Positions 3,243-48,625 of a DNA stretch of 58,455 bases are shown here, in pieces. Under the pieces are notes generated by a model. That model did not search any database. It worked only from the letters and a program-made list of their open reading frames with translations, and had not been told where the DNA came from. This DNA comes from Stagnimonas sp. (GTDB taxonomy: Bacteria; Pseudomonadota; Gammaproteobacteria; Nevskiales; Nevskiaceae). Made by a program: the position numbers and the translations under genes. Location: assembly GCA_030652575.1 (NCBI GenBank), contig JAUSQI010000068.1, positions 1-58,455 on the forward strand, written 5' to 3'. Positions within the stretch are counted from its first letter, which is position 1. The number at the start of each line of letters is the position of its first letter.

Positions 3243-3293
3243 ATATGGCTCCGTGACCAGGACTCGAACCTGGGACCCAGTGATTAACAGTCA
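3243..3293. repeat. attL: 51-bp copy of the tRNA-Asn 3' end
   Basis: These 51 bases are identical to 48547-48597. They contain the encoded CCA end, acceptor arm, T arm and part of the anticodon arm of tRNA-Asn, reading on the minus strand. Identity stops in the anticodon stem, and the 5' half of the tRNA is missing here. This is the expected displaced 3' fragment left by integration of an element into a tRNA gene. Confidence 0.93.
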
Positions 3294-3420: not shown

Positions 3421-3440
3421 ACCGGAACCTAACCGGAACC
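3421..3440. repeat. 20-bp direct repeat near left island end (copy 1)
   Basis: This segment is itself a tandem of two ACCGGAACC units and is identical to 48471-48490. It lies 128 bp inside attL and just upstream of the integrase ribosome-binding site. The matching copy lies 57 bp inside attR. Paired repeats like this near both ends are typical of recombinase arm-type or directionality-factor sites, which is an inference here. Confidence 0.8.
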
Positions 3441-3460
3441 TGATCGCGGAGGGCTTGGCG

Positions 3461-4858: not shown

Positions 4859-5008
4859 ATCATCAAACCTACATTGGCGGCTATTTCGAGAAGACTCAAT
4901 CTCAGCTTTAGTAGACCGCTGAATTTGATTCAGCTGTGCAACAAGAGGACCATCCAACGCGGGGCTGGGAACGCCCAAACGAAGAAAAATCAAGGGGACA
5001 GGTGGGTC

Positions 5009-7240: not shown

Positions 7241-7469
7241 ATCTATCTTTGAAAGATCCCCCGACAATCATGTGAGTCGGGCAACCCGCTGCGCTGCCCA
7301 ACACAGAGCCATATTGCCCCAAAGCGTCGTCGTCTAAACCGAGGTCGGCAGGCAATAGTGGCAGGCAAAATCTGGCGGCGGACTGACTTGAAGAGGCATT
7401 GACGTAGTACTCACGCAATCTATAAAGCCGTTGCCACTGGGCATCGACAGACTCCATACGAGCCAAAAA

Positions 7470-10400
7470 ATGAAGCTGATCGCAAACAGGGGCGATGACA
7501 GGGTTCTTGATGTAGTTCAGAACGCACTCACACCGGCTTCAAATCTTGGGCTCGCCACCTCGGCGCTGTCCCTGTTTGCATTTGAACGGCTCCAGAAAAA
7601 GCTCGCCCAACTCAATCAGTGCAGCCTCATCATCCCGAACACGGACGCTGAAGAAATTGGCTTGCTAGGTAGTGACGCTGACCGCGCAGCACGCAATAGG
7701 CTGCAAGCACATTGGCTCGCCTCAGAGTTGAGCAAGTGGATCAGCAAGCAAGTCGAGGTGAAGCATGTTCCCGGTGCCTTACCGCAGTCCACCTTTATCG
7801 TCGGCGGAACGAATCAACCCACATGGGCAGCAGTTGCCGGCAGTTGCCCGTTCACTACTAGTGGGCTGGGCACAGCACCTGGCAATCCTTTCGCTCTCAT
7901 TCAGGCGGCTGAAACCGAAGCCGAGTGGACCATGCTCAACGGCTGGTTCACGACGCTTTGGAACAGTCTGCCGGCCAACAACATCGCCCAACAGCAGTTG
8001 CTGTCTGCACTCACTGAGATCAGCTCGCACAAAGCTCCATCGCTCATCTATTACTTTGCGCTCCACACACTCTTCAAAGACCGAGGAGATGAGCTCGACG
8101 AAGATCGCGTCATCAAATCCGGCACGGGCATTCGCGACACCGTGGTGTGGAAGAAGCTCTACCGGTTCCAGCGTGACGGCGTGGTTGGTGCTATCGACAA
8201 GCTGGATCGAATCGGTGGCTGCATCATTGCGGATAGCGTTGGTCTGGGTAAGACCTTCGAGGCGCTCGCTGTCATCAAGTATTACGAGCTGAGGAACGAT
8301 CGAGTGCTGGTGCTTGTTCCTAAGCGCCTGCGCGACAACTGGACGCTGTACAAGAGCAACGACAAGCGCAATGTGCTGGCTGCGGACCGCCTGCACTACG
8401 ACGTGCTCAATCACACCGACCTAAGCCGCGATAGCGGCCTCTCCGGCGACATCGACCTCACGCACGTTAACTGGGGTAACTACGACCTGGTGGTCATCGA
8501 CGAGTCCCACAACTTCCGCAATAAGGCGACGCTTAAAGACCGCGAGACACGCTACGACCGGCTGATGAAACAGATCATCAAAGCCGGTGTGAAGACCCGT
8601 GTGCTGATGCTCTCCGCCACGCCGGTCAACAACCGCCTTGCCGACCTTAAGAATCAGATCGCGTTCGTCACGGAAGGCCGCGACGACGCGCTCAGTAGCC
8701 AGAACATTCCCAGCATCGAAACCACCATCCGTAGGGCGCAAACCCAGTTCAACAAGTGGCTGAACCTGGAGGATGCTGACCGGAAGCCGCTGCGCCTACT
8801 GGACATGCTTGGCTTCGATTACTTCCAGCTGCTCGACTCGCTCACCATCGCCCGGTCGCGCAAGCACATTCAGAAGTACTACGGCACCGCAGAGACGGGA
8901 AACTTCCCGGAGCGGCTACCGCCGAAGAACATCAAATCGGATGTAGATCTTCAGGGCAGCTTCCCCAGCATCCGCGTTATCAACGACGAGATCCGCCGCC
9001 TCAATCTCGCAGCCTATGCACCGCTGCGCTACGTGCTGGCGACCAAGCAAGCGGCCTACGACGAGAAGTACAGCACCAAGGTGCGTGGCGGCGAAGGGTT
9101 TTTCCGCCAAGCCGATCGTGAAGAGAGCCTGGTCCACCTATTGCGCGTCAATCTGCTCAAGCGGATGGAGAGTTCAGTCCATGCCTTTGCTCTGACGGTG
9201 CAGCGCCAGTTGGCACATCTCAATGACCTGCTAGAACGTATCGACAATCACGAAGATGCCGTCGAAGAACTCAGCATCGAAGACATCGAGGTGGACGACC
9301 CGCGCTTCGAGTCACTGCTGGTGGGTCGCAAAGTCAAAGTCCTACTCGGCGACGTAGACCGAATCCGCTGGCGACAGGACTTGATGGAAGACCGCAACCG
9401 TCTCGCCACGCTGCTATCTGCCGCGAATGAGGTCATTCCCAAGCGAGATGCGAAGCTCGCTGATCTCAAGGCGGTCATCGCTGCCAAACTCGCATTGCCG
9501 ATCAACGAAGGCAATCGCAAGCTCATCATCTTCACGGCCTTCGCCGATACCGCCCAATACTTGTTTGAAGAGCTCAGCGGCTGGGCGCAGCGTGAGCATC
9601 AACTGCAAAGTGCGCTACTCACGGGCTCCGGCAGCAACAAGACCACCCTGAAAGGCATCCGCGCTGATCTCGGCAGTGTCCTCAGCGCTTTCTCGCCACG
9701 CTCGAAAGAACGACCGGCTGAACTAGCGGGCGAGGGTGAGCTCGACATGCTGATCGCCACAGACTGCATCAGCGAAGGCCAGAATCTCCAAGACTGCGAT
9801 TGCCTCATCAACTACGACATCCACTGGAACCCGGTCCGCATCATTCAGCGGTTCGGTCGTATTGATCGCATCGGGTCCACCAACGCGCACATCCAGCTCA
9901 TCAACTTCTGGCCCAACATGGAGCTGGAGGAATACATCAATCTGGAGCAGCGAGTAAGTGGCCGCATGGTGCTGCTGGATGTCTCCGCCACCGGCGAAGA
10001 AAACCTCATCTCGGAAGATGCGGGCAACGCCATGAATGACCTTGAATACCGCCGCAAGCAATTGCAGCGCCTCAAGGACTCAGTGCTTGATCTTGAAGAC
10101 CTCAGCAGCGGCGTCTCGATCGCCGATCTCACCCTCAACGATTTCCGGGTCGATCTGGCGGGCTTCCTGCGCGAGCAGCCAGATGCCTTCAACCGGACGC
10201 CGATGGGTGTCTTTGCCGTCACCACCGCAGGACACGAATCAGACGACACACCGCCCGGTGTCATCTTCTGCCTTAAGGCAGAAGGGGCCAATACCAGCGA
10301 CTACCTTGAGCCGGGCTATCCCCTCAGTCCCTATTTTTTGGTGCATGTGGGGGACGATGGCAGCGTGCTGCTGCCGCATACCCAGGCCAAGAAGGTGCTC

Positions 10401-10661
10401 GATCGTCTGCGCAAGCTCGGCTTAGGCCGCGACCTGCCCGATGCCACCGCCACCAGTCGCTTCGACAAAAGCACGCGCAACGGCGAGGACATGGGCACCT
10501 ATCAGCGCCATCTTGCGGAGGCCATCAGCGCCATCGTTGGAAAAAAGGAAGAGCGCGGCGTAGCCAGTCTGTTCACACCTGGCGGCACCCATGCGCTCAA
10601 AGGGGAGATTGCCGGTGCCAACGATTTCGAGGTGGTGGCATACCTCGTCGTGCTGCCCTGA
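7470..10661 (+). CDS. SNF2/SF2-type helicase with degenerate PLD-like N-terminus
   Basis: This protein of 1063 residues is chosen from the ATG at 7470 (MKLIANRGDD). The N-terminal 180 residues look like the phospholipase-D-like nuclease domain that often precedes this helicase type. The block ending VAGSCPFTTSGLG matches the usual VGSSNFT..GL region, but the expected HxK catalytic pair is not visible, so the domain is probably inactive. Helicase motifs are clear: Walker A DSVGLGKT, motif II DESH, motif III SATP, and SNF2-like motifs V/VI (SEGQNLQ, IIQRFGRIDRIG). It probably translocates on double-stranded DNA. It heads a same-strand run with DUF4391, RloA, RloB, Mod and Res genes, so it likely acts with the RM system. 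A 229-bp gap precedes it and probably holds its promoter. Confidence 0.88.
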   Translation: MKLIANRGDDRVLDVVQNALTPASNLGLATSALSLFAFERLQKKLAQLNQCSLIIPNTDAEEIGLLGSDADRAARNRLQAHWLASELSKWISKQVEVKHVPGALPQSTFIVGGTNQPTWAAVAGSCPFTTSGLGTAPGNPFALIQAAETEAEWTMLNGWFTTLWNSLPANNIAQQQLLSALTEISSHKAPSLIYYFALHTLFKDRGDELDEDRVIKSGTGIRDTVVWKKLYRFQRDGVVGAIDKLDRIGGCIIADSVGLGKTFEALAVIKYYELRNDRVLVLVPKRLRDNWTLYKSNDKRNVLAADRLHYDVLNHTDLSRDSGLSGDIDLTHVNWGNYDLVVIDESHNFRNKATLKDRETRYDRLMKQIIKAGVKTRVLMLSATPVNNRLADLKNQIAFVTEGRDDALSSQNIPSIETTIRRAQTQFNKWLNLEDADRKPLRLLDMLGFDYFQLLDSLTIARSRKHIQKYYGTAETGNFPERLPPKNIKSDVDLQGSFPSIRVINDEIRRLNLAAYAPLRYVLATKQAAYDEKYSTKVRGGEGFFRQADREESLVHLLRVNLLKRMESSVHAFALTVQRQLAHLNDLLERIDNHEDAVEELSIEDIEVDDPRFESLLVGRKVKVLLGDVDRIRWRQDLMEDRNRLATLLSAANEVIPKRDAKLADLKAVIAAKLALPINEGNRKLIIFTAFADTAQYLFEELSGWAQREHQLQSALLTGSGSNKTTLKGIRADLGSVLSAFSPRSKERPAELAGEGELDMLIATDCISEGQNLQDCDCLINYDIHWNPVRIIQRFGRIDRIGSTNAHIQLINFWPNMELEEYINLEQRVSGRMVLLDVSATGEENLISEDAGNAMNDLEYRRKQLQRLKDSVLDLEDLSSGVSIADLTLNDFRVDLAGFLREQPDAFNRTPMGVFAVTTAGHESDDTPPGVIFCLKAEGANTSDYLEPGYPLSPYFLVHVGDDGSVLLPHTQAKKVLDRLRKLGLGRDLPDATATSRFDKSTRNGEDMGTYQRHLAEAISAIVGKKEERGVASLFTPGGTHALKGEIAGANDFEVVAYLVVLP

Positions 10662-10688
10662 TCGTCACTGTCAGCACCTCGCCTGCAC

Positions 10689-11444
10689 ATGATCGACCTG
10701 CTCGCCGCACTGCAATTGCCCGACGCCTCCCGGCTCGAAAAGCGCATCGCCAAAACGGTGCTCACAGAGCACGGAGCTGTCACAGCGGCGGATAAGCGCG
10801 CGATTGCAGATGGCATTGAAGAGCTCACGTGGGTCGCTGCCCTCAAGCCCATCAACTGCGGTATCGCTGAATACCGCGACGCCCAGCGAGAGTATTTGGA
10901 AGTCGCCGTCTTGCGCTGCCAACTGCGAGCCTCCGCCAAGGCTTCGCGTCTTGCTGAGCTCATCCATCGCGCTGTCCCCTATCCGGTAGTGCTCATCACG
11001 CTGCAAGGTGCGCAGCAGACGCTCTCGCTGGCCCACAAGCGTTGGGCACATAACGAAGCAGGCAAGTGGGTTCTCGACGGCGAGCTTGTGCAAGCGCAGT
11101 TCAGCACTCAGCCGCCTGCCGCATCCGCCGTCGAGCAATCTTTTGCAGAGGCTCTCGCCCTGCATCGACAAACCGGCGGTGATTTTCTGGCACTGATGCA
11201 GAGTTACATCGATACCGTGAGCGCCCTCCAGCTGGCACGCCTCAGTGGGGTGTGGGCGCAACCCAAAAACGTCGAAGATGCAGGTGCGATGCGCGAGCGC
11301 CTACGCCGAAGCGAGGAACTGGCCTTTCAGATCAGCCAACTCAGGCAACAGCTCGCCAAAGCCACCCAGATGCAGAAGCGCGTTGAGCTCAATCTGGCGT
11401 TGCAACAGCTGAACAAGGAAAAGCTACAAGTCGAAACGGACTAG
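10689..11444 (+). CDS. DUF4391-family protein
   Basis: This 251-residue soluble protein resembles the DUF4391 family, which is frequently encoded next to SNF2-type helicases and methyltransferases in defence loci. The N-terminal 150 residues are a mixed alpha/beta region (MIDLLAALQLPDASRLEKRI, then a stretch around AYPVVLITL-type strands). The last 45 residues are a predicted coiled coil rich in Arg, Glu and Gln. No catalytic motif is recognisable. It starts 27 bp after the helicase stop, which suggests co-translation. It may be an adaptor between the helicase and the methyltransferase complex, but this is inference from neighbourhood only. Confidence 0.7.
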   Translation: MIDLLAALQLPDASRLEKRIAKTVLTEHGAVTAADKRAIADGIEELTWVAALKPINCGIAEYRDAQREYLEVAVLRCQLRASAKASRLAELIHRAVPYPVVLITLQGAQQTLSLAHKRWAHNEAGKWVLDGELVQAQFSTQPPAASAVEQSFAEALALHRQTGGDFLALMQSYIDTVSALQLARLSGVWAQPKNVEDAGAMRERLRRSEELAFQISQLRQQLAKATQMQKRVELNLALQQLNKEKLQVETD

Positions 11445-11550
11445 AACTCGAAACTCCGACCAAGCCAGATAGGGGTTATGACGCTAAAATAATTGCCGTT
11501 TCTGCACAAAAAGCGCAAAATATGGCTTCATAGGAAAGGAGAAACGCAAA

Positions 11551-12828
11551 ATGTTGGTCGAGTTCAGGGTCGCCAACTTCCGCTCCATCCACGAGGAGCA
11601 GGTTCTCAGCTTCGTCGCCTCCAACGACAAGACTGCCGCAAAAACGCACCTGATGGATGCCGGCATCAAAGGCGTGAGCCAGCTCACCCGCACGGCCGTC
11701 ATCTACGGTCCAAATGCCAGCGGCAAGTCCAGCATTCTCAGTGCGCTCGCCTACTTGCAGCAGGTGGTTCTTCAGTCCGCCAACCTTCAGCCGGGGGCTA
11801 GCTTCAATGCGCAGCCATTCAAGCTCAGCAAGGCTTCCGTCAAGCAGCCAAGCCGGTTCGAGATCACATTTGTGCTGGATGGTGCCCGCCATCAGTACGG
11901 TTTTTCGATCAGCGCCGAGCGCATCGTTGACGAGTGGCTGCTGGTTTACCGCACCGCCAAGCCGCAGCAGTGGTTTAACCGCGTCTGGAACGAGAAGACG
12001 CAGGTTCACGACTACGAGTTCAGCCCGCATCTCACCGGCACTCGCAAGGTCTGGCAGGAGGCAACACGAGCAAACGCTCTGTTTCTGTCCACAGCCGTAC
12101 AGCTCAATAGCGAGCTACTCCGCCCCGTCTTGAATTGGATGACCAGCCGCATCCTGTTTTTCGCTGCGGGGCAGCATCTTTCACACGACTACACCACAGA
12201 GCTGCTGAAGACTGACGATGGCCGAAACATGGTCAGTGCGTTTCTATCGGCGGCTGATACTGGCATCGTGGCTGTGCAGGCAATGTCTCGCAAGACCTTA
12301 AGGCGCACATACAAGCTGGACATGGCCATTAGTGGTCCTGCGCCAGTGTTGAATGAGGAGGTCGAGACCTTCACACCAATTTTCAGCCATACCGCTGATC
12401 CAGACTTGCCGAGCTTCGAGTTGCAGGATGAGTCGCAGGGCACTCAGCGCCTATATGCGCTCGCGGCGCCCGTACTCGATGCGCTCGCCAATGGCTGGAT
12501 GCTAGTCGTGGATGAGCTAGACAGCAGCCTGCACAGCTACCTGGTCAAGCACATCGTGCAGATGTTTCATAACCCTGCGATCAACACCAAGGGCGCGCAG
12601 CTGTTGTTCAGCACCCACGACACCTCATTACTCGGTGAGGATGTCTTCCGTCGCGACCAGATTTGGTTCACCGAGAAGGATCAGAGCGGCGCAACCCGGC
12701 TGTATCCCTTCAGCGACTTCAGCCCGCGTAAGGCCGAGGCTTGGGAGCGCGGCTATCTGGCTGGGCGCTACGGTGCCGTGCCGCTATTGCGTAGTGAGCC
12801 TGCCGTGCCCTCCAAGATCGCGGCCTAA
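11551..12828 (+). CDS. rloA: RloA-like AAA/ABC-type ATPase
   Basis: This 425-residue ATPase is of the AAA_15/OLD-like type. The ATG at 11551 has AGGAG 10 nt upstream. It shows the N-terminal LVEFRVANFRS strand typical of these proteins, Walker A GPNASGKS (53-60), a signature-like SQGTQRL (about 295-301), Walker B LVVDE (Asp321, Glu322) and an H-loop STHD (His356). The gene is followed after 3 nt by a TOPRIM gene of the RloB family, so the two form an ATPase/nuclease pair of the kind found in RloAB loci and, in general architecture, in PARIS and OLD-type defence. A 106-bp gap separates it from DUF4391, enough for its own promoter, so this pair may be an insertion within the helicase-RM operon. 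Confidence 0.8.
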   Translation: MLVEFRVANFRSIHEEQVLSFVASNDKTAAKTHLMDAGIKGVSQLTRTAVIYGPNASGKSSILSALAYLQQVVLQSANLQPGASFNAQPFKLSKASVKQPSRFEITFVLDGARHQYGFSISAERIVDEWLLVYRTAKPQQWFNRVWNEKTQVHDYEFSPHLTGTRKVWQEATRANALFLSTAVQLNSELLRPVLNWMTSRILFFAAGQHLSHDYTTELLKTDDGRNMVSAFLSAADTGIVAVQAMSRKTLRRTYKLDMAISGPAPVLNEEVETFTPIFSHTADPDLPSFELQDESQGTQRLYALAAPVLDALANGWMLVVDELDSSLHSYLVKHIVQMFHNPAINTKGAQLLFSTHDTSLLGEDVFRRDQIWFTEKDQSGATRLYPFSDFSPRKAEAWERGYLAGRYGAVPLLRSEPAVPSKIAA

Positions 12829-13513: not shown

Positions 13514-15592
13514 ATGCCCATGCAACCCGTCACCGCCACAGACCCGCTCGCCCACTCTGGCGATGTGGTGCAAGGCAACCTCGCGCAACTCAAAACCTTG
13601 TTCCCCGAAGCCTTTACCGAAGGCAAGGTGGACTTCGACGTGCTCAAGCAATTGCTGGGCGGCGCGGTGGAAGAGCGTGAGGAGAAATACGGGCTCAACT
13701 GGCATGGCAAGCGCCGTGCGCGGCAGCTGGCACTCACGCCGAGCACCGGCACGCTGCGGCCCGCGCCAGAAGACAGCGTGGACTGGGACACCACCCAGAA
13801 CCTGATGATTGAGGGCGACAACCTCGAAGTGCTCAAGCTCTTGCAGAAGAGCTACGCGGGCAAGGTGAAGCTCATCTACATCGACCCGCCCTACAACACG
13901 GGTAAGGACTTTGTTTACCCCGACGACTTCCGCGACAACATCAAGAACTATCAGCGGCTCACTGGACAGGTGGATGGCGAAGGCAAAGCAACTGGGAGCA
14001 ATAGAGAGGCCAATGGCAGGTTTCATACTGATTGGCTAAATATGATGTATCCGCGGATAAGGCTTGCTCGTGACCTCCTATCTCAAGATGGAGTTTTTTT
14101 TGCATCAATTGACGACAGTGAATCGGCAAACCTTAAGTGCATTCTCGATGAATGTTTTGGTGAAGAGAATTTCATCGATACGCTGGCTGTTGAGATGTCG
14201 ACGACATCTGGGCCAAAAACAGTTAATGCACAGCAGGGCACAATTGTAAAAAATGTTGAGTTTGTATATGTGTATAGAAAATCAGCAGCGTTTGACGAAA
14301 GGCCACACACGCCCCTACTGGACGGAATTGATTTCTACGATACGCATTACTCGGCTTGGCTTAATGACGATAGAACTTTAGGAAGCCTTTCAGATGCATT
14401 GCTTGCCGATGAAAAAATCAGAGCTGACATTATTAAATATGGCCTTGGAGATCGAGACGGTTTTAGCATCAAAAGCATAAATAAACTCCTAACACTTTCG
14501 GATAATGCTAAGACGTTCATCGAAGCCAACCTGGAAAAAATTGCCCGTATTGATAGAGCTCCTGTTTCTGCCCAAGGTCGCGCAACAGAAATTGGCATTT
14601 GGCAATCATTTGAGGCCGACCATCGAACATACTTTCTCACTACTCTGGCTAATGGCAATTTGCAGGCGTTGATGCCGCTTTCCTTAAATTACCGGATGTC
14701 GGACGACTATAAAGCTAGATTCGGAAGAACTGTGATCAGGGGCGACTTGTGGAAAGGCTTTCATCAAGACATGGGGAATGTAGCCAAAGAGGGCGATGTA
14801 GTTTTTGCTAACGGAAAAAAACCGATCCGTTTAATAAAACAATTAATTAAATGGTCGAACAGCGAAAAAGACGGAATCATTCTCGATTTTTTTGCAGGGA
14901 GTGGAACTACTGCACACGCAGTGATGCAGCTCAATGCTGATGATGGTGGCAAGCGATCTTTTATAACCGTGCAGCTCCCTGAAATACTTGATCCGAACGA
15001 TAAAGAGCAGAAGGCAGCCGTAGATTTCTGCGACGAGATTAATAAGCCAAGAAATATCGCTGAATTGACCAAAGAGCGTATTAGACGAGCAGCGAAGGGA
15101 ATCAAATCTGAAAACAAGGCGTGGGATGGAGATAAAGGCTTCCGCGTGCTCAAGCTCGACAGCAGCAATCTGCACGCGTGGGATGCCACCAGCGCCACTC
15201 TTGAGAAAGATTTGGTGGATAGCGCCGAGCACATCAAAACGGATCGCGTAGAGACCGATGTTCTATATGAGCTGCTACTCAAGCTGGGTCTCGATCTCTG
15301 CGTGTCGATGCAGCAGCGAGTGGTAGAAGGCAAAACCGTCCACGCGATTGGCGGCGGCGTGCTGATGGCCTGCCTCGACACTCGGATTGATGCGGCTGAG
15401 GCCGAAGCCCTCGCAATGGGCATCGTGCAATGGCAGCGTGAGCTCAAGACCGAAGGCGAAGTGACCTGTGTCTTCCGCGACAGCGCCTTTGGCGGCACCG
15501 ATGCGCAGGGGCGTCCAGCAGCGGACGTAGCCAAGACCAATCTCAGCAAGATTCTTGAGCAGCACGGCATCGCCAATGTGCGCAGCATTTAA
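13514..15592 (+). CDS. mod: Type III restriction-modification system, Mod subunit (DNA methyltransferase)
   Basis: This 692-residue beta-class N6-adenine DNA methyltransferase is the specificity and modification subunit of a type III system. The catalytic motif DPPYNTG (IYIDPPYNTGKDF, about residues 117-129) precedes the S-adenosylmethionine motif FAGSGTT (about 459-465), the order expected of Mod proteins. The middle between them would hold the target-recognition domain. The reading frame is intact, but base composition changes sharply: about 13985-15125 is AT-rich, whereas both ends match the GC-rich neighbours. This suggests that the central segment was exchanged by recombination. The Res gene begins 15 bp downstream. 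The recognition sequence cannot be read from the protein. Confidence 0.94.
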   Translation: MPMQPVTATDPLAHSGDVVQGNLAQLKTLFPEAFTEGKVDFDVLKQLLGGAVEEREEKYGLNWHGKRRARQLALTPSTGTLRPAPEDSVDWDTTQNLMIEGDNLEVLKLLQKSYAGKVKLIYIDPPYNTGKDFVYPDDFRDNIKNYQRLTGQVDGEGKATGSNREANGRFHTDWLNMMYPRIRLARDLLSQDGVFFASIDDSESANLKCILDECFGEENFIDTLAVEMSTTSGPKTVNAQQGTIVKNVEFVYVYRKSAAFDERPHTPLLDGIDFYDTHYSAWLNDDRTLGSLSDALLADEKIRADIIKYGLGDRDGFSIKSINKLLTLSDNAKTFIEANLEKIARIDRAPVSAQGRATEIGIWQSFEADHRTYFLTTLANGNLQALMPLSLNYRMSDDYKARFGRTVIRGDLWKGFHQDMGNVAKEGDVVFANGKKPIRLIKQLIKWSNSEKDGIILDFFAGSGTTAHAVMQLNADDGGKRSFITVQLPEILDPNDKEQKAAVDFCDEINKPRNIAELTKERIRRAAKGIKSENKAWDGDKGFRVLKLDSSNLHAWDATSATLEKDLVDSAEHIKTDRVETDVLYELLLKLGLDLCVSMQQRVVEGKTVHAIGGGVLMACLDTRIDAAEAEALAMGIVQWQRELKTEGEVTCVFRDSAFGGTDAQGRPAADVAKTNLSKILEQHGIANVRSI

Positions 15593-15607
15593 GGCGCAGG
15601 CCCCGCG

Positions 15608-18600
15608 ATGAAACTGCACTTTGAAGACCCCTTCACCGACGACCGCCTGACGTACCAGAAGCAGGCCATCGAGGCCGTATGCGATCTGTTTGCCGGGCAA
15701 GAGGTCTGCCGCAGCGAGTTCACCGTAACGGCCAGCACCGGGCCGAATCCGCAGCTGTTTAGCGACAGTGGCTTGGGTATTGGCAACCGACTGATGCTGC
15801 TGCCGGAGCAGCTGCTGGAGAACTTGAACGCCGTGCAGCTACGCCACGGGCTGCCGCCCTCTGCCGCGCCCGTGAGTCACGACTTTACGGTGGAGATGGA
15901 AACCGGCACCGGCAAGACCTATGTGTATCTGCGCACAGCGTTTGAGCTGCACCGGCGCTATGGCTTCACCAAGTTTGTGATTGTGGTGCCGTCGGTGGCG
16001 ATCAAAGAGGGCGTGTTCAAGAGCTTGCAGATGGTGGAGTCGCACTTCAAAAGCCACTACGCCAACACCTGGTGCGAGCCTTTCATCTACGACAGCAGCA
16101 AGCTGGGCCAGGTACGCAACTTTGCCACCAGCGCCAGCATTCAAGTGATGGTGATGACGGTAGGTGCCATCAACAAGTTCGGCGATGAGGCCGAGGCGCA
16201 AGCCGAAGAAGCCGCTGAAGCCAAGCGCCGCGAGAAGAGCAAGAACGTGATGTATCGCGCGCAGGAGAAGATCGGCGGCGAAAAGCCCATCGACCTCATC
16301 CGCGATACCCGGCCCATCGTGATTGTCGATGAGCCTCAGAGTGTGGATGGTGGTATCGACGGCAAGGGGAGAAAGGCGCTTGCGCGCATGAACCCGCTCT
16401 GCACTCTGCGCTATTCCGCTACCCATGCCGACAAGCACCAGATGGTTTACCGGCTTACCGCCGTGGATGCCTACCAGCAGAAGCTGGTGAAGCAAATTGA
16501 GGTGGCGGGTGCCACGGTAGAGGCAGCGCACAACAAGCCATACGCGCGTGTGGTGAGCATCAGCAACAAGGGTGGCAAGGTGGCTGCGGTGGTGGAGCTG
16601 GACTGCGCCCAGCTCAACACCGTGCAGCGCCGAGAGGTGAAGGTATTCGACGGCGATGACCTGGAGCAGGTGACCAACCGCGCCATTTATGCCGGATGCC
16701 GCGTAGGCACCATCAATGCTGCTAAAGGCGAGCAATGGCTGGAGCTACGCATCCCCGGCGGCGAGCAGTTTCTTAAGGTTGGCCAAGCCTATGGCGATGT
16801 CGATGCGAGTGCGGTGACGCGCGAGATGATCCGCCGCACCATCAAGCATCACCTGGAGAAAGAGCTGCGGCTGCGGCCCTTGGGTATCAAGGTGCTCTCG
16901 CTATTCTTCATCGACGAGGTGGCGAAATATCGCGGCTTTGATGAGGCCACCGGCGAACCCAAACAGGGCGAATACGCCCGCATGTTTGAAGAGGAATACA
17001 CCCGTTATGCCCGCCAGCCGGACTTTCGCACCTTGTTCGGGGAAGTGGACTTAACCCGCTTGGCGAGCGAGGTGCATCAGGGCTATTTCAGCATCGACAA
17101 AAAGAAGATCGGCACCAAGACCGTGGAGGTGCTCAAAGATAGCAGCGGCACCACGGCGGCAGATGACGATACCTACAACCTCATCATGCGCGACAAGGAA
17201 AAGCTGCTGGATTTGGCGACACCCCTGAAGTTCATCTTCAGCCATAGCGCGCTGCGCGAGGGCTGGGATAACCCCAACGTCTTCCAGATATGCAGCTTGC
17301 GCGACATGAGTGGCGAGCGGCAGCGACGGCAGAGCCTGGGGCGCGGCCTACGCCTCTGCGTGAATCAAGAAGGCATCCGCCAGCGCGGGTTTGAGCTCAA
17401 CACTCTGACGGTGATTGCCAAGGAGAGCTTCGAGCAATTTGCCGAGAACTTGCAGCTGGAAATCGAGAAGGAAACGGGTATTCGATTTGGCATCGTCGAA
17501 GCCCATGAGTTTGCAGGCATCGCTGTGGTGAAGGCCGATGGCACCACGGCACCATTGGGCTTTGAGCAATCCAAGACTTTGCATGCACACCTCAAGGCTC
17601 AGGGCTACATCAATGCGGCCGGCAAGGTGCAAGACGCGCTCCGCACGGCGCTCAAGAATGGCAGCCTGAATCTGCCCGCTGAGTTCGAGCCACAGCGCGC
17701 GGCCATCAGCCAGATCCTCACCCAGCTCTGCGGCAAGCTGGAAGTGAAGAACGCCGATGACCGCAAGCCCGTTGCGCTGCGCCGCGCCGTGCTGGAAGGC
17801 GAAGAGTTCAAGGCCCTGTGGGATCGAATCAAGCACCAGACGACGTATCGGGTGGAATTCGACAACGAGAAGCTGCTGGAAGACTGCATCGTGGCGCTGC
17901 GTAACGCCGCACCCATCGACAAAACTCGCCTGCAATGGGGCCTCGCGCTGATCGCGCAGGAAGAGGGCGGCCTCAAGACCATCGAGAACAAGAAGCGCGG
18001 CGCTGACACGGTGGTGCTCAACGAAACCGACATCCCCTTGCCGGATTTGCTCACGGAGCTGCAAGACCGCACCCAGCTCACGCGCAAGAGCCTGGTGCGG
18101 GTGCTGACCGGCAGCGGGCGGCTCAACGACTTCAAACGCAACCCACAGCAGTTCATCACCTTGTGCGCTGAGATCATCAACCGCGCCAAGCGCATGGCAC
18201 TGGTGGATGGCATCCGCTACGTGAAGCTGGGCGAAACGCACTTCTACGCGCAGGAGCTCTTCGCTGACCCCAAGCACCAGCTCATGGGCTACATCCACAA
18301 CACGCTGCGCGATACCGAGAAATCGGTGTACGAGCATGTGGTGTATGACAGCAACACCGAGCGCGACTTTGCCGCCGAGCTAGAGAAGAACGAGGCCATC
18401 AAGGTCTACGCCAAGCTCCCCAATTGGTTCAAGGTGCCTACGCCTCTGGGCAGCTATAACCCGGACTGGGCCGTGCTCATGCAGCGTGATGGCGAGGAGC
18501 GGCTGTACTTCGTGGTTGAGACAAAGAGCAGCTTGTTCACTGATGACCTGCGTGATGTAGAGAGCGGCAAGATCAAGTGTGGCGAGAAGCACTTTGATGA

Positions 18601-18691
18601 GCTTGCAGTTGAGCGCGGTGCGAAAGACTCCGCGAGGTATTTGGTAGCGACCAGCGCGACAGCAGTATTCACTGAGGACACTGCCCTATGA
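15608..18691 (+). CDS. res: Type III restriction-modification system, Res subunit (helicase-nuclease)
   Basis: This 1027-residue ATP-dependent restriction subunit pairs with Mod. SF2 motifs are visible: Walker A ETGTGKT (about 98-104), DEPQ motif II (IVIVDEPQS, about 237-245), a YSAT motif III, motif V FSHSALREGWDNPNVFQ and motif VI RQSLGRGLRL. The C-terminus carries a PD-(D/E)xK nuclease: NPDWAVL followed by FVVETKSS. With Mod it would translocate or diffuse along DNA and cut when two unmodified sites are engaged. The frame is complete and all key residues are present, so the system looks active. Its stop overlaps the next start in ATGA. Confidence 0.94.
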   Translation: MKLHFEDPFTDDRLTYQKQAIEAVCDLFAGQEVCRSEFTVTASTGPNPQLFSDSGLGIGNRLMLLPEQLLENLNAVQLRHGLPPSAAPVSHDFTVEMETGTGKTYVYLRTAFELHRRYGFTKFVIVVPSVAIKEGVFKSLQMVESHFKSHYANTWCEPFIYDSSKLGQVRNFATSASIQVMVMTVGAINKFGDEAEAQAEEAAEAKRREKSKNVMYRAQEKIGGEKPIDLIRDTRPIVIVDEPQSVDGGIDGKGRKALARMNPLCTLRYSATHADKHQMVYRLTAVDAYQQKLVKQIEVAGATVEAAHNKPYARVVSISNKGGKVAAVVELDCAQLNTVQRREVKVFDGDDLEQVTNRAIYAGCRVGTINAAKGEQWLELRIPGGEQFLKVGQAYGDVDASAVTREMIRRTIKHHLEKELRLRPLGIKVLSLFFIDEVAKYRGFDEATGEPKQGEYARMFEEEYTRYARQPDFRTLFGEVDLTRLASEVHQGYFSIDKKKIGTKTVEVLKDSSGTTAADDDTYNLIMRDKEKLLDLATPLKFIFSHSALREGWDNPNVFQICSLRDMSGERQRRQSLGRGLRLCVNQEGIRQRGFELNTLTVIAKESFEQFAENLQLEIEKETGIRFGIVEAHEFAGIAVVKADGTTAPLGFEQSKTLHAHLKAQGYINAAGKVQDALRTALKNGSLNLPAEFEPQRAAISQILTQLCGKLEVKNADDRKPVALRRAVLEGEEFKALWDRIKHQTTYRVEFDNEKLLEDCIVALRNAAPIDKTRLQWGLALIAQEEGGLKTIENKKRGADTVVLNETDIPLPDLLTELQDRTQLTRKSLVRVLTGSGRLNDFKRNPQQFITLCAEIINRAKRMALVDGIRYVKLGETHFYAQELFADPKHQLMGYIHNTLRDTEKSVYEHVVYDSNTERDFAAELEKNEAIKVYAKLPNWFKVPTPLGSYNPDWAVLMQRDGEERLYFVVETKSSLFTDDLRDVESGKIKCGEKHFDELAVERGAKDSARYLVATSATAVFTEDTAL

Positions 18692-22784: not shown

Positions 22785-22805
22785 GTTACATAACCACCCT
22801 ATAGA

Positions 22806-22841
22806 CCCCCTCATCGATTTTCAGATGAGGGGGTTTTTTTT
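22806..22841 (+). terminator. Strong rho-independent terminator
   Basis: An approximately 11-bp stem (CCCCCTCATC with its complement) is followed by eight T residues on the plus strand. It ends the replication module. The convergent minus-strand DNA-damage operon ends 25 bp further on. Confidence 0.9.
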
Positions 22842-22865: not shown

Positions 22866-23033
22866 TCAATGCCGCGCGCCTTTCCAAGTGCCGCCATACC
22901 GGTAGCCCGGCTTGGCCTGCTCGGCCGGCAGACAGCTTAGGCAGACAAATACCCAAGCCACTGTCGGGGCGATCTGGATGCGGTAGGCCACGAGGGTTGG
23001 TTGGGCACAGACCGCACAGTCCTTCGTCTTCAT
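22866..23033 (-). CDS. 55-residue zinc-ribbon-like protein coupled to SprT
   Basis: This small gene begins at the ATG overlapping the SprT stop (ATGA on the minus strand) and encodes 55 residues, starting MKTKDCAVCAQ. It has two Cys-x2-Cys pairs (CAVC and CLSC) about 27 residues apart, the layout of a four-cysteine zinc ribbon. Many SprT-family proteases carry a C-terminal zinc ribbon as part of the same chain; here the protease lacks one and this separate coupled gene could supply it. It is the last gene of the umuDC-type operon. The coding potential is supported by the overlap and motif, not by a recognised family. Confidence 0.6.
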   Translation of the reverse strand: MKTKDCAVCAQPTLVAYRIQIAPTVAWVFVCLSCLPAEQAKPGYRYGGTWKGARH

Positions 23034-23650
23034 GGCCCCGACCGCCCTCGCATCGCAGCCCTCCGCTCAGCGGGGGCGACCTGAGGCGCCTCGAACAGCA
23101 GCGTGCTCTGTGCGAGGACGACCCCACGCTGTGTTTTGGGCAGAGGCTGCATATCGTGGAAGGGCCGTGGCGGTCGCCCGAAGTAGACCATCACCATCAT
23201 CCACTCCGGCCCGTGTGGCTCTGTCCCACGCGGCAGATACCAGTCCACCACCAGGTGCGCGATCTCGTGCGGCACGGTCTGCTGGATCATCCGCACCGGG
23301 TAGCGCTGCATGAGGTCGGGATGGATGCGCACCCACTGCTCCAGCTGTCGCGGGTTCTTGTAGCCCGTCACCGCCATGCCGGCAATCTGGGTGCCCTTGA
23401 GATCAAACAGCAGCTTCGGCCGCACGATGGGCGGCCTACCGCGACGCTGGAAGACGGGGATGCGGCGGGCGACCTCGATCCAGTGATCGACAGCGGCTTC
23501 GACCCGCACCCGCACCCGCTGGGGATTGCGGTGCTGGGCACCAGCCTCCCACTCGATGCCGCGCTCATCCCGCACCAAGGGGATCGCACGCCAGGGCTCC
23601 TCCAGGGGCTGGTTCCAGAAGGCAGAAGTAGTGGGGTCAAGCTTGCTCAT
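23030..23650 (-). CDS. SprT-like zinc metalloprotease
   Basis: This 206-residue protein has the SprT/Spartan zinc-protease motif HEIAH (VPHEIAHLVVDWY, about residues 127-139) and a third ligand His shortly after in EPHGPEW. Eukaryotic SPRTN uses this fold to degrade proteins crosslinked to DNA; bacterial SprT functions are less clear. It overlaps the HNH gene upstream by 4 nt (ATGA) and the small zinc-ribbon gene downstream by 4 nt. It therefore belongs to the umuD-umuC-HNH-sprT operon. No signal peptide is present, so the protein is cytoplasmic. A role in DNA-protein crosslink repair is inferred from family and neighbours. Confidence 0.82.
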   Translation of the reverse strand: MSKLDPTTSAFWNQPLEEPWRAIPLVRDERGIEWEAGAQHRNPQRVRVRVEAAVDHWIEVARRIPVFQRRGRPPIVRPKLLFDLKGTQIAGMAVTGYKNPRQLEQWVRIHPDLMQRYPVRMIQQTVPHEIAHLVVDWYLPRGTEPHGPEWMMVMVYFGRPPRPFHDMQPLPKTQRGVVLAQSTLLFEAPQVAPAERRAAMRGRSGP

Positions 23651-24012
23651 GCGGAAGCTCGCTGCCGAGCTGCCCAGGCGAGGTGCTTTGCGATCTCGGG
23701 CTCGGCCCGCAGTGCCTCCAGCGTGTTGAGGCGCCGACCCAGGGTGGGCTCATCGAAGTGCTCGTGGATGAAGTCATGGCAGCCCCGGCACAGCCAGGCG
23801 CCGCGAGCACGCATCTCGACGATCCCGAAGGTCTCCCGAAACAAGGTCTTGTGATGATTCTTGCGGGGGATGAGGTGATGGAAGGTGAGCGGGTGCGGCA
23901 CGGTGCAGAGCTCACAGGGGCTGCCGTCCTTGGGACGCCGCCGTCGAGTTGGCAGGGACATCTCGTCCGCAGACTCCAGCGCCGTCGCCATCGCTGCACT
24001 CTTCCTCGCCAT
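23647..24012 (-). CDS. Small HNH-endonuclease-like protein
   Basis: This 121-residue protein carries an HNH-type zinc and catalytic pattern: CELC, then FHHLIPRKNHH, then WLCRGCHDFIHEHF. The two Cys pairs would hold zinc, and the HH plus the later His form the beta-beta-alpha metal centre. Such proteins nick or cut DNA, but compact members can also be nuclease-dead. Its ATG shares one base with the umuC stop (TGATG), and its stop overlaps the SprT start. Its place between a lesion-bypass polymerase and an SprT protease suggests DNA processing during damage tolerance. Confidence 0.75.
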   Translation of the reverse strand: MARKSAAMATALESADEMSLPTRRRRPKDGSPCELCTVPHPLTFHHLIPRKNHHKTLFRETFGIVEMRARGAWLCRGCHDFIHEHFDEPTLGRRLNTLEALRAEPEIAKHLAWAARQRASA

Positions 24013-25301
24013 CAGCGCGCGACCGGGAGCTCGTCCCAGCGGGTGGTGTAGGCCGGAGAGCGATGCTCGGACTTCAGCTTCCAGTCCTTCTGGATACCGG
24101 CACCCGCCAGCGCCAGTGTGCCGCGGCCATAGCGCAGGTTCAGGCGATCCATGGTGGTGTTGAGGCGATCGCGCTTGGCGGTCTCGAAGGGATTCTCGAA
24201 GAGCGAAGCCTGATGGCGGTTCTTCGGGGTGATCTGACTCATCATCACACCGGCCTTCTTGTAGCGATAGCCATCCACCCAGATACGGCTCACCCCCTGC
24301 ATCGCATACCGACAGAGCGCAAAAGTGTCGTCGGTGGGCGTGGCGAAGCTCACCAACGTCTGCCGGCTGATCTGAGGTGTGTTCTTGAAAGGGTTGGTGT
24401 GGGCGAAGACCAGGATCGCACTGGCCTCAGTGCCATCGCTGCGCAGCTTGGCAGCCGCCGTCGCGGTGTAGCTGCTCACGGCCTCCTTCAGCCCCTCGAT
24501 GCGCGTCACTTCCTCGCCAAAGCTGCGACTCGTGGTCACCCCCTGACGTACGGCCTGTAGCTCCTCTAGTTCCAGGCAAGACTCACCACGCAGCTCGCGT
24601 ACCGTGCGCTCGACCACCACACCGAAGCGCGCCCGCAAGGTTGCCGTGTCGGCATCCCGCAAGTCCCGTACGGTGTCGATGCCCATCACCGCCAGGCGCT
24701 CACTCAGCTTGCGGCCAATGCCCCAGACCGCGCTGACATGGATATCGGCGAGAAGCCGCTCATAGTCGTCCACTGGCAGGTCTCCGAAGTCGCAGACCCC
24801 ATCAAATCCTGGTCGCTTCTTGGCGCAGTGGTTGGCGAGCTTGGCCAGGGTCTTGGTCGAAGCGATCCCGACACACACGGGGAGTCCGGTCCAGCGCCGC
24901 ACCCGATAGCGGATCGACTGCCCATAGGTGAGGCAATCCCGAGATCCCGTCAGGTCCAGGAAACACTCGTCGATCGAGTAGATCTCCTGCCGAGGGGCCA
25001 TGTCCGCAAGCAGGGTCATGACGCGACGACTCATATCGCCGTAGAGCGTGTAGTTGCTGCTCAGTGCAACGACCCCGTGCTGCCGCGCCAGGTCTTTGAG
25101 CTGAAACCAGGGCGCACCCATCTTGATGCCGAGGGCCTTGGCCTCGTTCGAGCGGGAGACCGCACAGCCGTCGTTGTTGCTGAGCACGATGACGGGCTTG
25201 CCCAGCAGTCGGGGATCGAAGACCCGTTCGCAGGAGACATAGAAGTTGTTGACGTCGACCAGGGCGAAGACGGGCTTCGGATGGAGGTCGCGATTCGTCA
25301 C
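24012..25301 (-). CDS. umuC: UmuC, Y-family DNA polymerase V catalytic subunit
   Basis: This 429-residue translesion polymerase starts at GTG, overlapping the umuD stop in GTGA. This start gives the normal UmuC length; a longer frame extends upstream but lies inside umuD. Catalytic features are Asp16 in [15 protein letters not shown] and the acidic pair in SIDECFLD. The C-terminal QASLF resembles a beta-clamp-binding motif. With UmuD' it would copy past DNA lesions. The next gene (HNH-like) overlaps by one base, so the polymerase is part of a five-gene operon. The reading frame is intact and the enzyme looks active. Confidence 0.95.
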
Positions 25302-25927
25302 CGGCGGCGCAGCTGTTGAATCACGCTGGTGACGACTCCGAAGACCATCCACTCGTCGTATTCCGTGATGACACGGCGCTGGTGAATCGGGTTGGTGGAA
25401 TCAGGCACCAAGGCCACTTCCATCTCGGTCTTGTAGAGACGCTTCACCGTGTGGCCTTCACCATTGATGATCGCAATCACTACATCGCCATGACGGGCTT
25501 CAAGGCTGGAATCGACCGTGAGCTTGCAGCCCTCGACGATGCCAGCCAGGTTCATCGAGTCCCCTTCGACGGTATAGAAGTAAGTCGAGACAGGATTGCG
25601 TACCAGCAGATCGTTGAGATCGCAGCCTTCTTCGAGATGGTCATCGGCCGGAGAGGGGAAACCCGCCGGCACCCGCATGCCGACGTGATGAATCGTCTTG
25701 GGCGACGGATTGCTGTGCGCCGGGGTCAGGTGAAGGGTGGTGCCCATCATGTGAAATGGCAGCGGCTTGAGCCCGCTGTCGTTCTTCAAGAGCGCTTTCC
25801 TGACCTTCAGATAGGACACCACATCGGAGCGCACACTTTGGGGTACGCGGATCACTTCAGTGGGCTCGTTGTTCTTGGTGGTGCCGACGGGACGGCCCCG
25901 GCCACGGGGAATGAGGGTGGTTGCCAT
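25298..25927 (-). CDS. umuD: UmuD-type self-cleaving protein with long N-terminal extension
   Basis: This 209-residue S24-family protein is longer than classical UmuD (about 139). The cleavage site is Ala88-Gly89 ([11 protein letters not shown]). Catalytic residues are Ser124 (VEGDSM) and Lys162 (GHTVKR). In normal UmuD only about 24 residues precede the cut; here there are 88. They include a basic stretch [10 protein letters not shown] and [17 protein letters not shown], which looks like a ribbon-helix-helix or other small DNA-binding unit. The protein may therefore be both a polymerase subunit and a repressor, like Acinetobacter UmuDAb. A 25-bp palindrome sits 10 bp upstream over its promoter. 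AGGAG lies 9 nt before the ATG. Confidence 0.9.
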
Positions 25928-25937
25928 GCTGCCGCTC

Positions 25938-25962
25938 CTAATTATTTGTAACAAATAATTAG
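25938..25962. promoter_or_regulatory. 25-bp palindromic operator over the umuD promoter
   Basis: Two 12-bp arms (CTAATTATTTGT and its exact complement) flank a single central base. The palindrome covers the predicted minus-strand -10 box and ends 10 bp before the umuD ATG. It is unlike the CTG-N10-CAG LexA box, so another repressor is likely, perhaps the extended UmuD itself. Confidence 0.8.
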
Positions 25963-25984
25963 GGCCTGCCCCCAAGCGCGTCAA
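25955..25984 (-). promoter_or_regulatory. Predicted umuD promoter
   Basis: On the minus strand TTGACG (25979-25984) and AATTAT (25955-25960) are 18 bp apart. The -10 box falls inside the palindrome, so a protein bound there would block RNA polymerase. Confidence 0.6.
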
Positions 25985-26053
25985 CCGCACCGTAACAGGG
26001 CCTTTGCAAACGTTAGGATTCTTGGACTTGCCCTGCCCAAAAACTGACCGCCC

Positions 26054-27031
26054 ATGTGCTACTCCGCGCAATTGGTCCAAGACCACCGGGAATACCTGCG
26101 GGCCTTCCCTGGGGCCAAGGTCGGTATCGAAGAATTCGCCCGGCTGACCGAGGCCCGGTGGTCCGGGCAGAAGGCGCTCATCCCCAAGGGGATGGCCCAC
26201 AGTTTCCTCTACAGCGACCGGCCTGAAGACCAGGAGGTCGCGGGTCATCTGCGGCGCTATGACGAGCTGCATGAGCACGATCTGCGGGCCGAGCTGGCCA
26301 GCCAGCAGCTGCGGCTAGAGAAGGCCGAGGCCGATCTCAAGGTGAAGGAGACCAAGAAGGCGAGGGATTCGCTGCGCATCGCCGGAAACAAGATCAAGAA
26401 TCTTCAGAGGCAGCTCGCTGACCTTGAGCGGAGAGAGCTGCTGCCGAAGGACTCAAGGGTCTATCCGCAGTCCTATGCCCCGGTGCTGGTGAAGATCGAC
26501 GGCGAGCTGCGCATCCTGCCGATGCGCTACCTGCTGCGACCGCAGGGCCGGCCACCGGAGTTCGATAAGGAGTATTCGGGCTGCTACAACGCACGTCGCG
26601 ACAACCTCCAGAAGTTTTGGCGCAAGCAGTTTGGGGTGACCCACGGCGTGGTGATGATGGAGAGGTTCTACGAGAACGTGTCTCACCACGATTATGAGCA
26701 ACGACCGCTGACCGCTGACGAGAAGCCCACCAGTGTGGTGGTGGAGTTTGAGCCAGGTGACGGCAAGACGATGTTTGTGGCCTGCCTCTGGAGCCACTGG
26801 CAGGGCGCCGGAGATGACCTGCACAGCTTCGCGATCATCACCGACGAGCCTCCGCCCGAAGTGCGTGAGACGGGCCATGACCGCTGTGTGGTGCAGATCA
26901 AGCGGGAGCGGGTGGAGGAGTGGCTCGACGCGACCGGCAAGTCGGATGAACAGCTGCTCGAAATTCTTTCCGACAGGCCGCAGGTCCGGTATCAACATCG
27001 CCTGCTCAAGACAGAGCTGCCGGCGGGCTGA
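26054..27031 (+). CDS. SRAP-domain protein (YedK/HMCES type) with coiled-coil insert
   Basis: This 325-residue protein begins MCYSAQ, giving the Cys2 that, after removal of Met, forms a covalent crosslink with abasic sites in single-stranded DNA. Further SRAP landmarks are NARRDN (for NARAE), a Glu in ERFYENV (for GFYEW), FAIITDEPP and His in GHDRCVV. An extra helical, Lys/Glu-rich segment at about residues 75-140 is inserted between the first and second blocks; it is absent from canonical YedK (about 222 residues). The gene is transcribed away from umuD, and the umuD palindrome lies 91 bp upstream, so both may be induced together. It probably shields abasic sites at stalled forks. Confidence 0.82.
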   Translation: MCYSAQLVQDHREYLRAFPGAKVGIEEFARLTEARWSGQKALIPKGMAHSFLYSDRPEDQEVAGHLRRYDELHEHDLRAELASQQLRLEKAEADLKVKETKKARDSLRIAGNKIKNLQRQLADLERRELLPKDSRVYPQSYAPVLVKIDGELRILPMRYLLRPQGRPPEFDKEYSGCYNARRDNLQKFWRKQFGVTHGVVMMERFYENVSHHDYEQRPLTADEKPTSVVVEFEPGDGKTMFVACLWSHWQGAGDDLHSFAIITDEPPPEVRETGHDRCVVQIKRERVEEWLDATGKSDEQLLEILSDRPQVRYQHRLLKTELPAG

Positions 27032-27061
27032 ACGACCGAATTCCTTCGACGACCACAAGGC

Positions 27062-27193
27062 ATGAATCAGCACGAATCGCAGCCCCGTTGTTTGGCCCGG
27101 AAGCTCGGTGAGCTTGCCAATGGCCGACTAGACCAGTCGAGATGGCTGCGTCGTTGGCCGGCAGATCCTCATGAGAGCTGGCTGCGAAAGTGA
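27062..27193 (+). CDS. Possible 43-residue protein downstream of SRAP
   Basis: A short frame starting MNQHESQPR and ending ESWLRK overlaps the GTG of the next gene by 4 nt (GTGA). It is Trp- and Arg-rich (QSRWLRRWP). The overlap with the following gene and the small distance to SRAP (30 bp) suggest a genuine small gene in an operon, but no family is recognised and the ribosome-binding site is weak. Confidence 0.4.
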   Translation: MNQHESQPRCLARKLGELANGRLDQSRWLRRWPADPHESWLRK

Positions 27194-27627
27194 CTCGCCT
27201 CGGACTGCAACCGCCAATTCGCTACTACAAGGTGAGCGGCGGCAAACCGCTGACCTACGCAGACGTCGTCGTGCTCTGGAATCACTCGCCCTACCTGCAA
27301 CCCGCTCGCGGTGAAGGTAGTGCCCAGCTGTCCAGGCTTCGACTCGCCTTCAATGGTCAACGCTTCGCATATGCACACCGAAATGACGCGCAGCGCCGTC
27401 GTGCCTTTCAGCGAGTGAGCGAGGCTTATCCCGACCAGAACAGCAAGAGTTCCTGGGTCAGTTACTTTGAATACATCGCCCACGGTGACATCCCGTTTCC
27501 CGAAGGCGTCAAGGACTTTCGTCCAACGATTGACTGGGCGCTGACCTGTGAACGATTTGGCTTCTTCCTGGAAATCCGCCGCCAGCGCCGACTGGCCAAA
27601 GAGGCGTTGGAAGCGCGTCAGAACTAA
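27190..27627 (+). CDS. Unknown protein after SRAP
   Basis: This 145-residue protein starts at GTG, overlapping the small frame before it. I do not recognise a family. It is soluble and basic, with aromatic patches (WVSYFEYIAHGDIPFPEG) and a C-terminal Arg/Lys-rich helix (LEIRRQRRLAKEALEARQ). It lies in the same direction as SRAP and ends 138 bp before the IS element, so it is probably co-expressed with the SRAP gene. A nucleic-acid-binding role is only suggested by its charge. Confidence 0.55.
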   Translation: MTRLGLQPPIRYYKVSGGKPLTYADVVVLWNHSPYLQPARGEGSAQLSRLRLAFNGQRFAYAHRNDAQRRRAFQRVSEAYPDQNSKSSWVSYFEYIAHGDIPFPEGVKDFRPTIDWALTCERFGFFLEIRRQRRLAKEALEARQN

Positions 27628-48470: not shown

Positions 48471-48490
48471 ACCGGAACCTAACCGGAACC
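48471..48490. repeat. 20-bp direct repeat near right island end (copy 2)
   Basis: This copy is identical to 3421-3440 and in the same orientation. It lies 57 bp inside attR, just before the tRNA terminator. See the left copy for interpretation. Confidence 0.8.

Positions 48491-48546: not shown

Positions 48547-48625
<79 letters not shown>

Follow-up and report, generated by a model that had tools for sequence, protein, structure and literature searches.

Several of the parts treated here are known from described systems. SRAP genes have been reported beside umuD-umuC, their products being thought to work with DNA polymerase V (Pol V), according to the main text of Aravind, Anand and Iyer 2013 (PMC3765255). 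In Xenopus extracts, the protease SPRTN degrades the crosslinked SRAP protein HMCES, after which bypass follows, as given in the available text of two articles (PMC10250235, PMC9436759). In Acinetobacter, UmuDAb acts as a repressor with the operator TTGA(N4)GTWAC(N4)TCAA, the core of which outweighs either arm for binding (available text of PMC11332147). Here we analyzed a stretch of 58,455 nucleotides (nt) from Stagnimonas sp. (contig JAUSQI010000068.1 of assembly GCA_030652575.1, hereafter the window), which carries umuD and umuC followed by genes for an HNH-type protein, an SprT-type metalloprotease and a zinc-ribbon-like protein, as well as a SRAP gene diverging from umuD. New in this arrangement is a palindrome between umuD and SRAP, and SprT is the unusual part of the set. 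The cassette is real and mobile, and it is probably self-regulated. Our tentative overall reading, close to an even call, is that an integrative island here carries an SOS-type module for damage tolerance that regulates itself, in which both arms would belong to one UmuD-controlled regulon.

The gene cluster and its island

The preliminary description of this region had listed five minus-strand genes overlapping by 1–4 nt, and their positions (Table 1) as well as their junctions were reproduced: going from umuD down to the zinc-ribbon gene, neighbours share 4, 1, 4, and 4 nt, with umuC starting at the likely GTG at 25301 (a longer start at GTG 25352 is possible and would give a umuD/umuC overlap of 55 nt). 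The Pfam matches of UmuC, UmuD (S24), the SprT-like protein, and SRAP all exceed the curated cut-offs, and both Pol V subunits (UmuD, UmuC) pass the NCBIfam subfamily cut-offs as well. UmuC contains the motifs LVDVNNFY and YSIDECF, which we take to be its metal site. The family matches of the HNH protein (Pfam HNH 0.62; NCBIfam HlpB, NF058586, 44.5 bits vs. a cut-off of 130) and of the zinc-ribbon protein (Pfam Cys-rich 0.065; four cysteines forming two CxxC pairs) stay below the cut-offs. The calls of the HNH, SprT, and zinc-ribbon genes are backed by their recurrence as a block in related genomes (57–75% identity), and zinc-ribbon homologues (62–75% identity) adjoin SprT in five of these. 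The guanine-cytosine (GC) content at third positions, 0.73–0.82 across the six genes, decides little, because an antisense control open reading frame (ORF, 22997–23854) also reaches 0.73. Terminator-like sites number five in the region, against a mean of 3.5 in shuffled sequences.

Two small followers had originally been assigned to the SRAP arm. These ORFs of 43 codons (27062–27193) and 145 codons (27190–27627) are weak, with a third-position GC content of 0.59 and 0.65, respectively, and the longer one has neither a plasmid match nor a Pfam family; they were dropped from the cassette for these reasons, which leaves the divergent SRAP gene with its intact catalytic residues. Cys2, Asn179, Glu207, and His275 of SRAP are invariant in nine sequences (the window, seven plasmid relatives, and one canonical SRAP) and correspond to the active site of YedK (Cys2, Asn75, Glu105, His160; available text of PMC9436759) by an alignment of relatives, YedK itself lying outside that alignment. 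From these residues the protein is predicted to crosslink to abasic sites. It also carries an inserted N-terminal coiled-coil hairpin (modelled helices 57–98 and 101–129; block confidence 74–92 over residues 71–120). The SprT protein (PF10263) has the motifs HEIAH at 128–132 and HGPEW at 146–150, giving H128, E129, H132, and a third histidine, H146. When solved structures were searched by sequence, UmuD matched UmuD and LexA structures, SprT had no match and SRAP and HNH had chance-level matches only. The proposal that the HNH protein processes DNA lost ground, as nuclease activity is doubtful: the nearest named relative, HlpB of Bacillus subtilis, is reported to bind DNA with no apparent cleavage (second-hand, via the available text of PMC3765158).

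Table 1. Positions of the main features in the window (minus-strand genes are given from start to stop)
Feature	Position	Strand	Evidence
umuD	25927-25298	-	209 amino acids (aa); NCBIfam UmuD 115.3 bits vs. cut-off 110; Pfam S24 3e-23
umuC, Pol V catalytic subunit	25301-24012	-	429 aa; NCBIfam UmuC 482 bits vs. cut-off 431; Pfam IMS 3.5e-37
HNH-type, HlpB-like DNA-binding or nuclease protein	24012-23647	-	121 aa; NCBIfam HlpB 1.6e-11
SprT-type metalloprotease	23650-23030	-	206 aa; Pfam SprT-like 2.8e-10, 40.4 bits vs. cut-off 25.6
Zinc-ribbon-like protein	23033-22866	-	55 aa; Cys 6, 9, 31, 34
SRAP gene, divergent from umuD	26054-27031	+	Pfam SRAP (PF02586) 4.5e-21, 75.8 bits vs. cut-off 27.1
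Perfect palindrome, 27 bp, proposed operator for both arms	25937-25963		core GTAAC
Terminator-like hairpin downstream of the operon	22803-22836		13-pair stem, then T run
Genomic island, 45.3 kb, in tRNA-Asn, containing the whole cassette	3243-48597		direct repeats and integrase
Tyrosine integrase beside the left repeat	3455-4858	+	Pfam Phage_integrase 3.8e-8, Arm-DNA-bind_3 1.4e-7

That the unit is mobile, as had been suggested, is borne out by the borders of the island. A perfect 51-nt direct repeat is found at 3243–3293 and 48547–48597, its right copy being the 3′ part of a tRNA-Asn gene (48550–48625), so that the two marks of a tRNA-integrated island, a direct repeat pair that takes in the 3′ end of a tRNA gene and a neighbouring integrase, are both present. 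The island also holds a type III restriction pair and an insertion sequence-type transposase. Just inside both island ends a 20-nt repeat (two 9-nt copies) occurs in the same orientation at 3421–3440 and 48471–48490, and may be an arm-type integrase site. Further inwards, a row of genes at 4874–12828 encodes an AAA_13 ATPase, an SNF2/HKD-type helicase (PADLOC C3a139, 1.3e-128), a DUF4391 protein, and an AAA_21 ATPase; we regard it as a candidate defence cluster, situated beside the type III restriction genes (13514–18691).

The palindrome between umuD and SRAP

The palindrome (Table 1) has no second copy at up to three mismatches in the 3.44-Mb assembly, and the sole promoter-like -10 element upstream of umuD overlaps it. 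The N-terminus of UmuD is about 65 residues longer than that of E. coli UmuD (residue 87 of P0005, which is one residue longer than the umuD gene, aligns with UmuD residue 22), and a UmuD from an Acinetobacter plasmid aligns over residues 9–208 with 38% identity, UmuDAb itself lying outside this comparison. UmuD contains the motifs AGFPSPA (A88-G89), GDSM with Ser124, and TVKRL with Lys162; we take A88-G89 to be the self-cleavage site and Ser124/Lys162 to be the catalytic pair. GTnAC palindromes with 10 of 11 arm positions paired also precede extended umuD genes in two other genomes (G007, G124) and on an Acinetobacter plasmid.

The palindrome was also considered as a LexA site and rejected, the LexA box CTGT-N8-ACAG being absent from positions 25900–26060 of the window. 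This box lies upstream of lexA at nine of the ten loci fetched and, with one changed base, at the tenth (loci taken from 74 genomes over the cut-off, none of them from the genus of the window). No lexA above the cut-off was found in the draft genome of the window, which is 95% complete, and the gene is present in three of four genomes of the same genus; given this completeness and these congeners, we did not adopt the idea that the genome dispenses with LexA. At two loci of genome G066 a coiled-coil SRAP diverges from umuDC, the umuD having no extension, and perfect LexA boxes occupy the gap. It thus seems that the G066 loci use the switch of the host and that the window has one of its own. 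In G021, a coiled-coil SRAP diverges from a truncated umuC with no umuD match. Separately, at locus L186 the palindrome TTATCCACAGATTCAGTGGATAA was seen upstream of an extended umuD; it resembles a DnaA-box pair.

Recurrence of the genes in related genomes and on plasmids

The order-level sample comprised 85 genomes, in which strong UmuC matches gave 11 loci in nine genomes (a fragment in G015 was dropped and the G021 locus is truncated). A search for umuC with SRAP and SprT within 5 kb succeeded for the first partner at eight of the 11 loci and for the second at two, the window and G003. Close relatives of SprT (E below 1e-50) were detected in eight of the 85 genomes including the window, all of one family. 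Three of these eight have SprT near umuD (window, G003, G007) and two have both umuC and SRAP nearby (window, G003), while for the other five the fetched flanks of SprT contain none of umuC, umuD, and SRAP (approximately 7 kb; in G015 the contig ends 1.6 kb beyond the block). The notion of a fixed cassette with a conserved combination is weakened by these counts.

In G003, SRAP and SprT (a 174-aa ORF) share 4 nt, the next gene is weakly MmcB-like, and umuD-umuC are located past a transposase-like ORF; the UmuD of this genome aligns only from residue 89, i.e., it has no extension. In G007 (L042 3846-8015), an extended umuD, an MmcB-like gene, a rad3-type helicase (138 bits vs. the rad3 cut-off of 247), and SprT form one run without umuC, apparently a UmuD-type regulator freed from its polymerase. 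G010 (L242) has umuD along with the helicase, matched as two pieces, but neither the MmcB-like gene nor SprT. The MmcB-like label is weak (0.092, below the cut-off, for the G007 protein; no match for that of G003); in G015, G021, and G022 such a gene likewise points away from the block, and it stands after umuC at one locus of G034 and, as two pieces, in G035. Trios of HNH, zinc-ribbon, and SprT genes without nearby umuC, umuD, or SRAP were found in G015, G018, G019, and G022, and a zinc-ribbon-SprT pair in G021. The block order is HNH-SprT-zinc ribbon in the window versus HNH-zinc ribbon-SprT elsewhere. A DNA-damage role for SprT is supported.

The class-level sample (369 genomes) contained SprT-type genes in 63 genomes, SRAP in at least 123, and both in at least 28 including the window; in 26 other genomes no SprT and SRAP within 5 kb of each other were found among the matches listed, most lying on different draft contigs (places were compared by eye, and G429 had no listed SRAP place). 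In the phylum-level sample, SprT at E up to 1e-8 occurred in nine of 398 genomes, only the window giving a strong match. A scan of genome contigs returned one relative, from a Nevskia metagenome-assembled genome, which is the same as G018:C8 and was counted once. Pattern searches of viral contigs gave no SprT or SRAP relatives, and phage records gave no SRAP match. The full gene set of the window was not found in any other genome of the order, class, and phylum samples. SprT is part of a set of damage genes that are reshuffled among genomes, of which the full window combination is unique in the data searched. Of the compact DNA-damage unit initially envisaged, mobility and probable co-regulation stand, as does the recurrence of SprT beside umuD or SRAP in G003 and G007, and conservation of the exact set does not.

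Among 72,556 plasmid records, 104 matched the SRAP of the window, 88 of them over at least 80% of its length. In a non-random choice of 14 of these SRAP neighbourhoods, ImuA, ImuB, DnaE2, or UmuC were annotated within about 7 kb in eight, and an SprT-type gene in one. The latter is on a Rhodanobacter plasmid, where SprT and SRAP are convergent, 16 nt apart, and adjoin an ImuA-ImuB-DnaE2 set; this SprT comes from a different subfamily, which apparently ends in a C-terminal zinc ribbon. That widespread SprT type has matches in 2613 plasmid records, of which 2345 span at least 80%. In the one E. coli plasmid opened, which is conjugative, it sits immediately after stbC (L249 3392-4744), and the annotation shows no SRAP within 4 kb. 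On a Paraburkholderia plasmid (L248 7001-14951), ImuA-ImuB-DnaE2-SRAP adjoins BREX genes.

Proposed mechanism, alternatives and comparison with known systems

In the reading that we prefer, the extended UmuD would bind the palindrome and thereby repress the promoter of its own gene, in the manner of UmuDAb in Acinetobacter, and this single palindrome would control the umuD-umuC-HNH-SprT-zinc-ribbon operon together with SRAP on the opposite strand. Upon damage, RecA filaments would trigger the self-cleavage of UmuD, as suggested by its intact cleavage site and Ser/Lys pair; both arms would thereby be switched on together, and processed UmuD would form Pol V with UmuC. SRAP may then crosslink to and shield abasic sites in single-stranded DNA, Pol V would copy past the lesions, and SprT would trim DNA-stuck proteins ahead of the polymerase, crosslinked SRAP being a likely, but not the sole, substrate. 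The HNH and zinc-ribbon proteins probably bind DNA and assist SprT, because the trio also travels as a block without umuDC. A narrower version, a mobile single-operator counterpart of the HMCES-SPRTN-bypass route in which SRAP caps the site, SprT digests the capping protein to a peptide, the HNH and zinc-ribbon proteins act as DNA clamps and Pol V passes the remnant, appears unlikely to us, and we are equally doubtful, arguing by analogy, that crosslinked SRAP would be a dedicated substrate of SprT. In the sister arrangement of G007, the rad3-type helicase could take the unfolding step.

Several observations weigh against the self-regulated module. The palindrome shares the GTnAC core with the UmuDAb site, but its arms are not TTGA/TCAA, and the number of promoter-like sites equals chance (about one expected). 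Of 23 extended umuD loci, four including the window have a GTnAC palindrome in which 10 or all 11 of the 11 arm positions match (N-terminus aligning from residue 12 or earlier; 20 loci plus three from a second scan, L194 and L198 being too short for the upstream palindrome scan), therefore no general rule is claimed. The palindrome of G010 reaches eight of 11 arm positions, is equalled by the best site in 100 of 300 shuffles and is nearly the sequence found in G007, of the same genus; four loci (L187, L193, L195, L199) have AT-rich TTGA/TCAA-type palindromes with other cores, two (L240, L241) have none in the upstream scan, and Caballeronia pSBC2-6 has a LexA box within its extended umuD frame and no such palindrome. 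Structure predictions were unusable both for the SRAP core (SRAP alone, overall 44, the coiled coil being the main confident part) and for SprT (two sequences, mean predicted local distance difference test score 37), and the window SRAP alone retrieves no SRAP structure by sequence. The isolation of five of the eight close SprT genes belongs here too. Finally, YedK reverses its own crosslink in vitro (available text of PMC9436759), and according to one report HMCES is removed by the proteasome in human cells (available text of PMC10250235).

The self-reversal of YedK also favours what we hold to be a quite possible alternative, though one we would not count on, namely that SprT is a general DNA-protein-crosslink protease recruited into a Pol V operon, with SRAP reversing its own crosslinks and the regulon being shared through the damage response rather than through any action of one protein on the product of the other. 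The HNH-zinc ribbon-SprT trios of four genomes without nearby umuC or SRAP, the zinc-ribbon-SprT pair of G021, the other SprT-type gene after stbC, and the single annotated SprT-type gene among 14 plasmid neighbourhoods point the same way, whereas the 4-nt overlap of SRAP and SprT in G003 and the adjoining SRAP and different-subfamily SprT near ImuA-ImuB-DnaE2 in Rhodanobacter speak against it. It seems improbable that a umuDC-SRAP unit and an HNH-SprT-zinc-ribbon block are merely adjacent on the island by chance: the absence of the full set from the other genomes of the three samples and the differing block order would fit such an assembly, but the overlaps at all four junctions and the closeness of SprT to umuD in two of the other seven genomes that carry it do not (rough chance probability 0.002, assuming 10 kb on either side, about two umuD-like genes per 4-Mb genome and independence). 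We give very little credence to a regulatory role of SprT in which it would cleave the UmuD-type repressor, in the way the metalloprotease IrrE cleaves DdrO in Deinococcus. The window and G007 do combine a metalloprotease and a repressor-like UmuD in one operon, but UmuD keeps its self-cleavage site and Ser/Lys pair, five of the eight close SprT genes have no umuD in the fetched flanks and the UmuD of G003 has no extension.

SRAP-DNA crosslinks are cleared by self-reversal in the case of YedK in vitro and by SPRTN in Xenopus extracts. The self-regulated module, in which one proposed operator would govern SRAP, the SprT protease, and Pol V alike, offers a small clonable system for asking directly how bacteria clear them. 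Should the operator hold, UmuDAb-like self-repression would seem to reach beyond Acinetobacter and to be able to move with islands, so that a mobile element can bring its own damage switch.

Compared with known systems, the cluster resembles the SRAP-UmuDC neighbourhoods of PMC3765255 in that SRAP adjoins umuD-umuC; the main text of that article contains neither "SprT" nor "HNH", and the metallopeptidase it names is DUF955. Hence, the claim that the combination was undescribed does not extend to SRAP with umuDC, and it agrees for the rest with the literature searched by title and start of abstract (most subscription journals being outside), in which no bacterial SprT-SRAP operon was described. 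The plasmid DNA-repair clusters (SRAP with ImuA-ImuB-DnaE2 or UmuDC, some with Ku and LigD) share with the window the coiled-coil SRAP subfamily and mobility, but they mostly have other polymerases, and their one SprT is of another subfamily. HlpB of B. subtilis is likewise a small stand-alone HNH-type protein, of weak similarity, from which the window protein differs by falling below the family cut-off. The vertebrate HMCES-SPRTN-bypass route has the same components, a SRAP crosslinker, an SprT-type protease, and a bypass polymerase, which here form one gene cluster; the window version is bacterial, island-encoded and known from its genes, and the action of SprT on SRAP is proposed for it by analogy. 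The UmuDAb system of Acinetobacter shares the N-terminal extension of UmuD and a GTnAC palindrome between umuD and a divergent gene (available text of PMC11332147), whereas the window differs in its operator arms, in having most relatives with LexA, its own genus included, as opposed to the genus-wide lack of LexA that goes with UmuDAb, and in having SRAP as the divergent gene.

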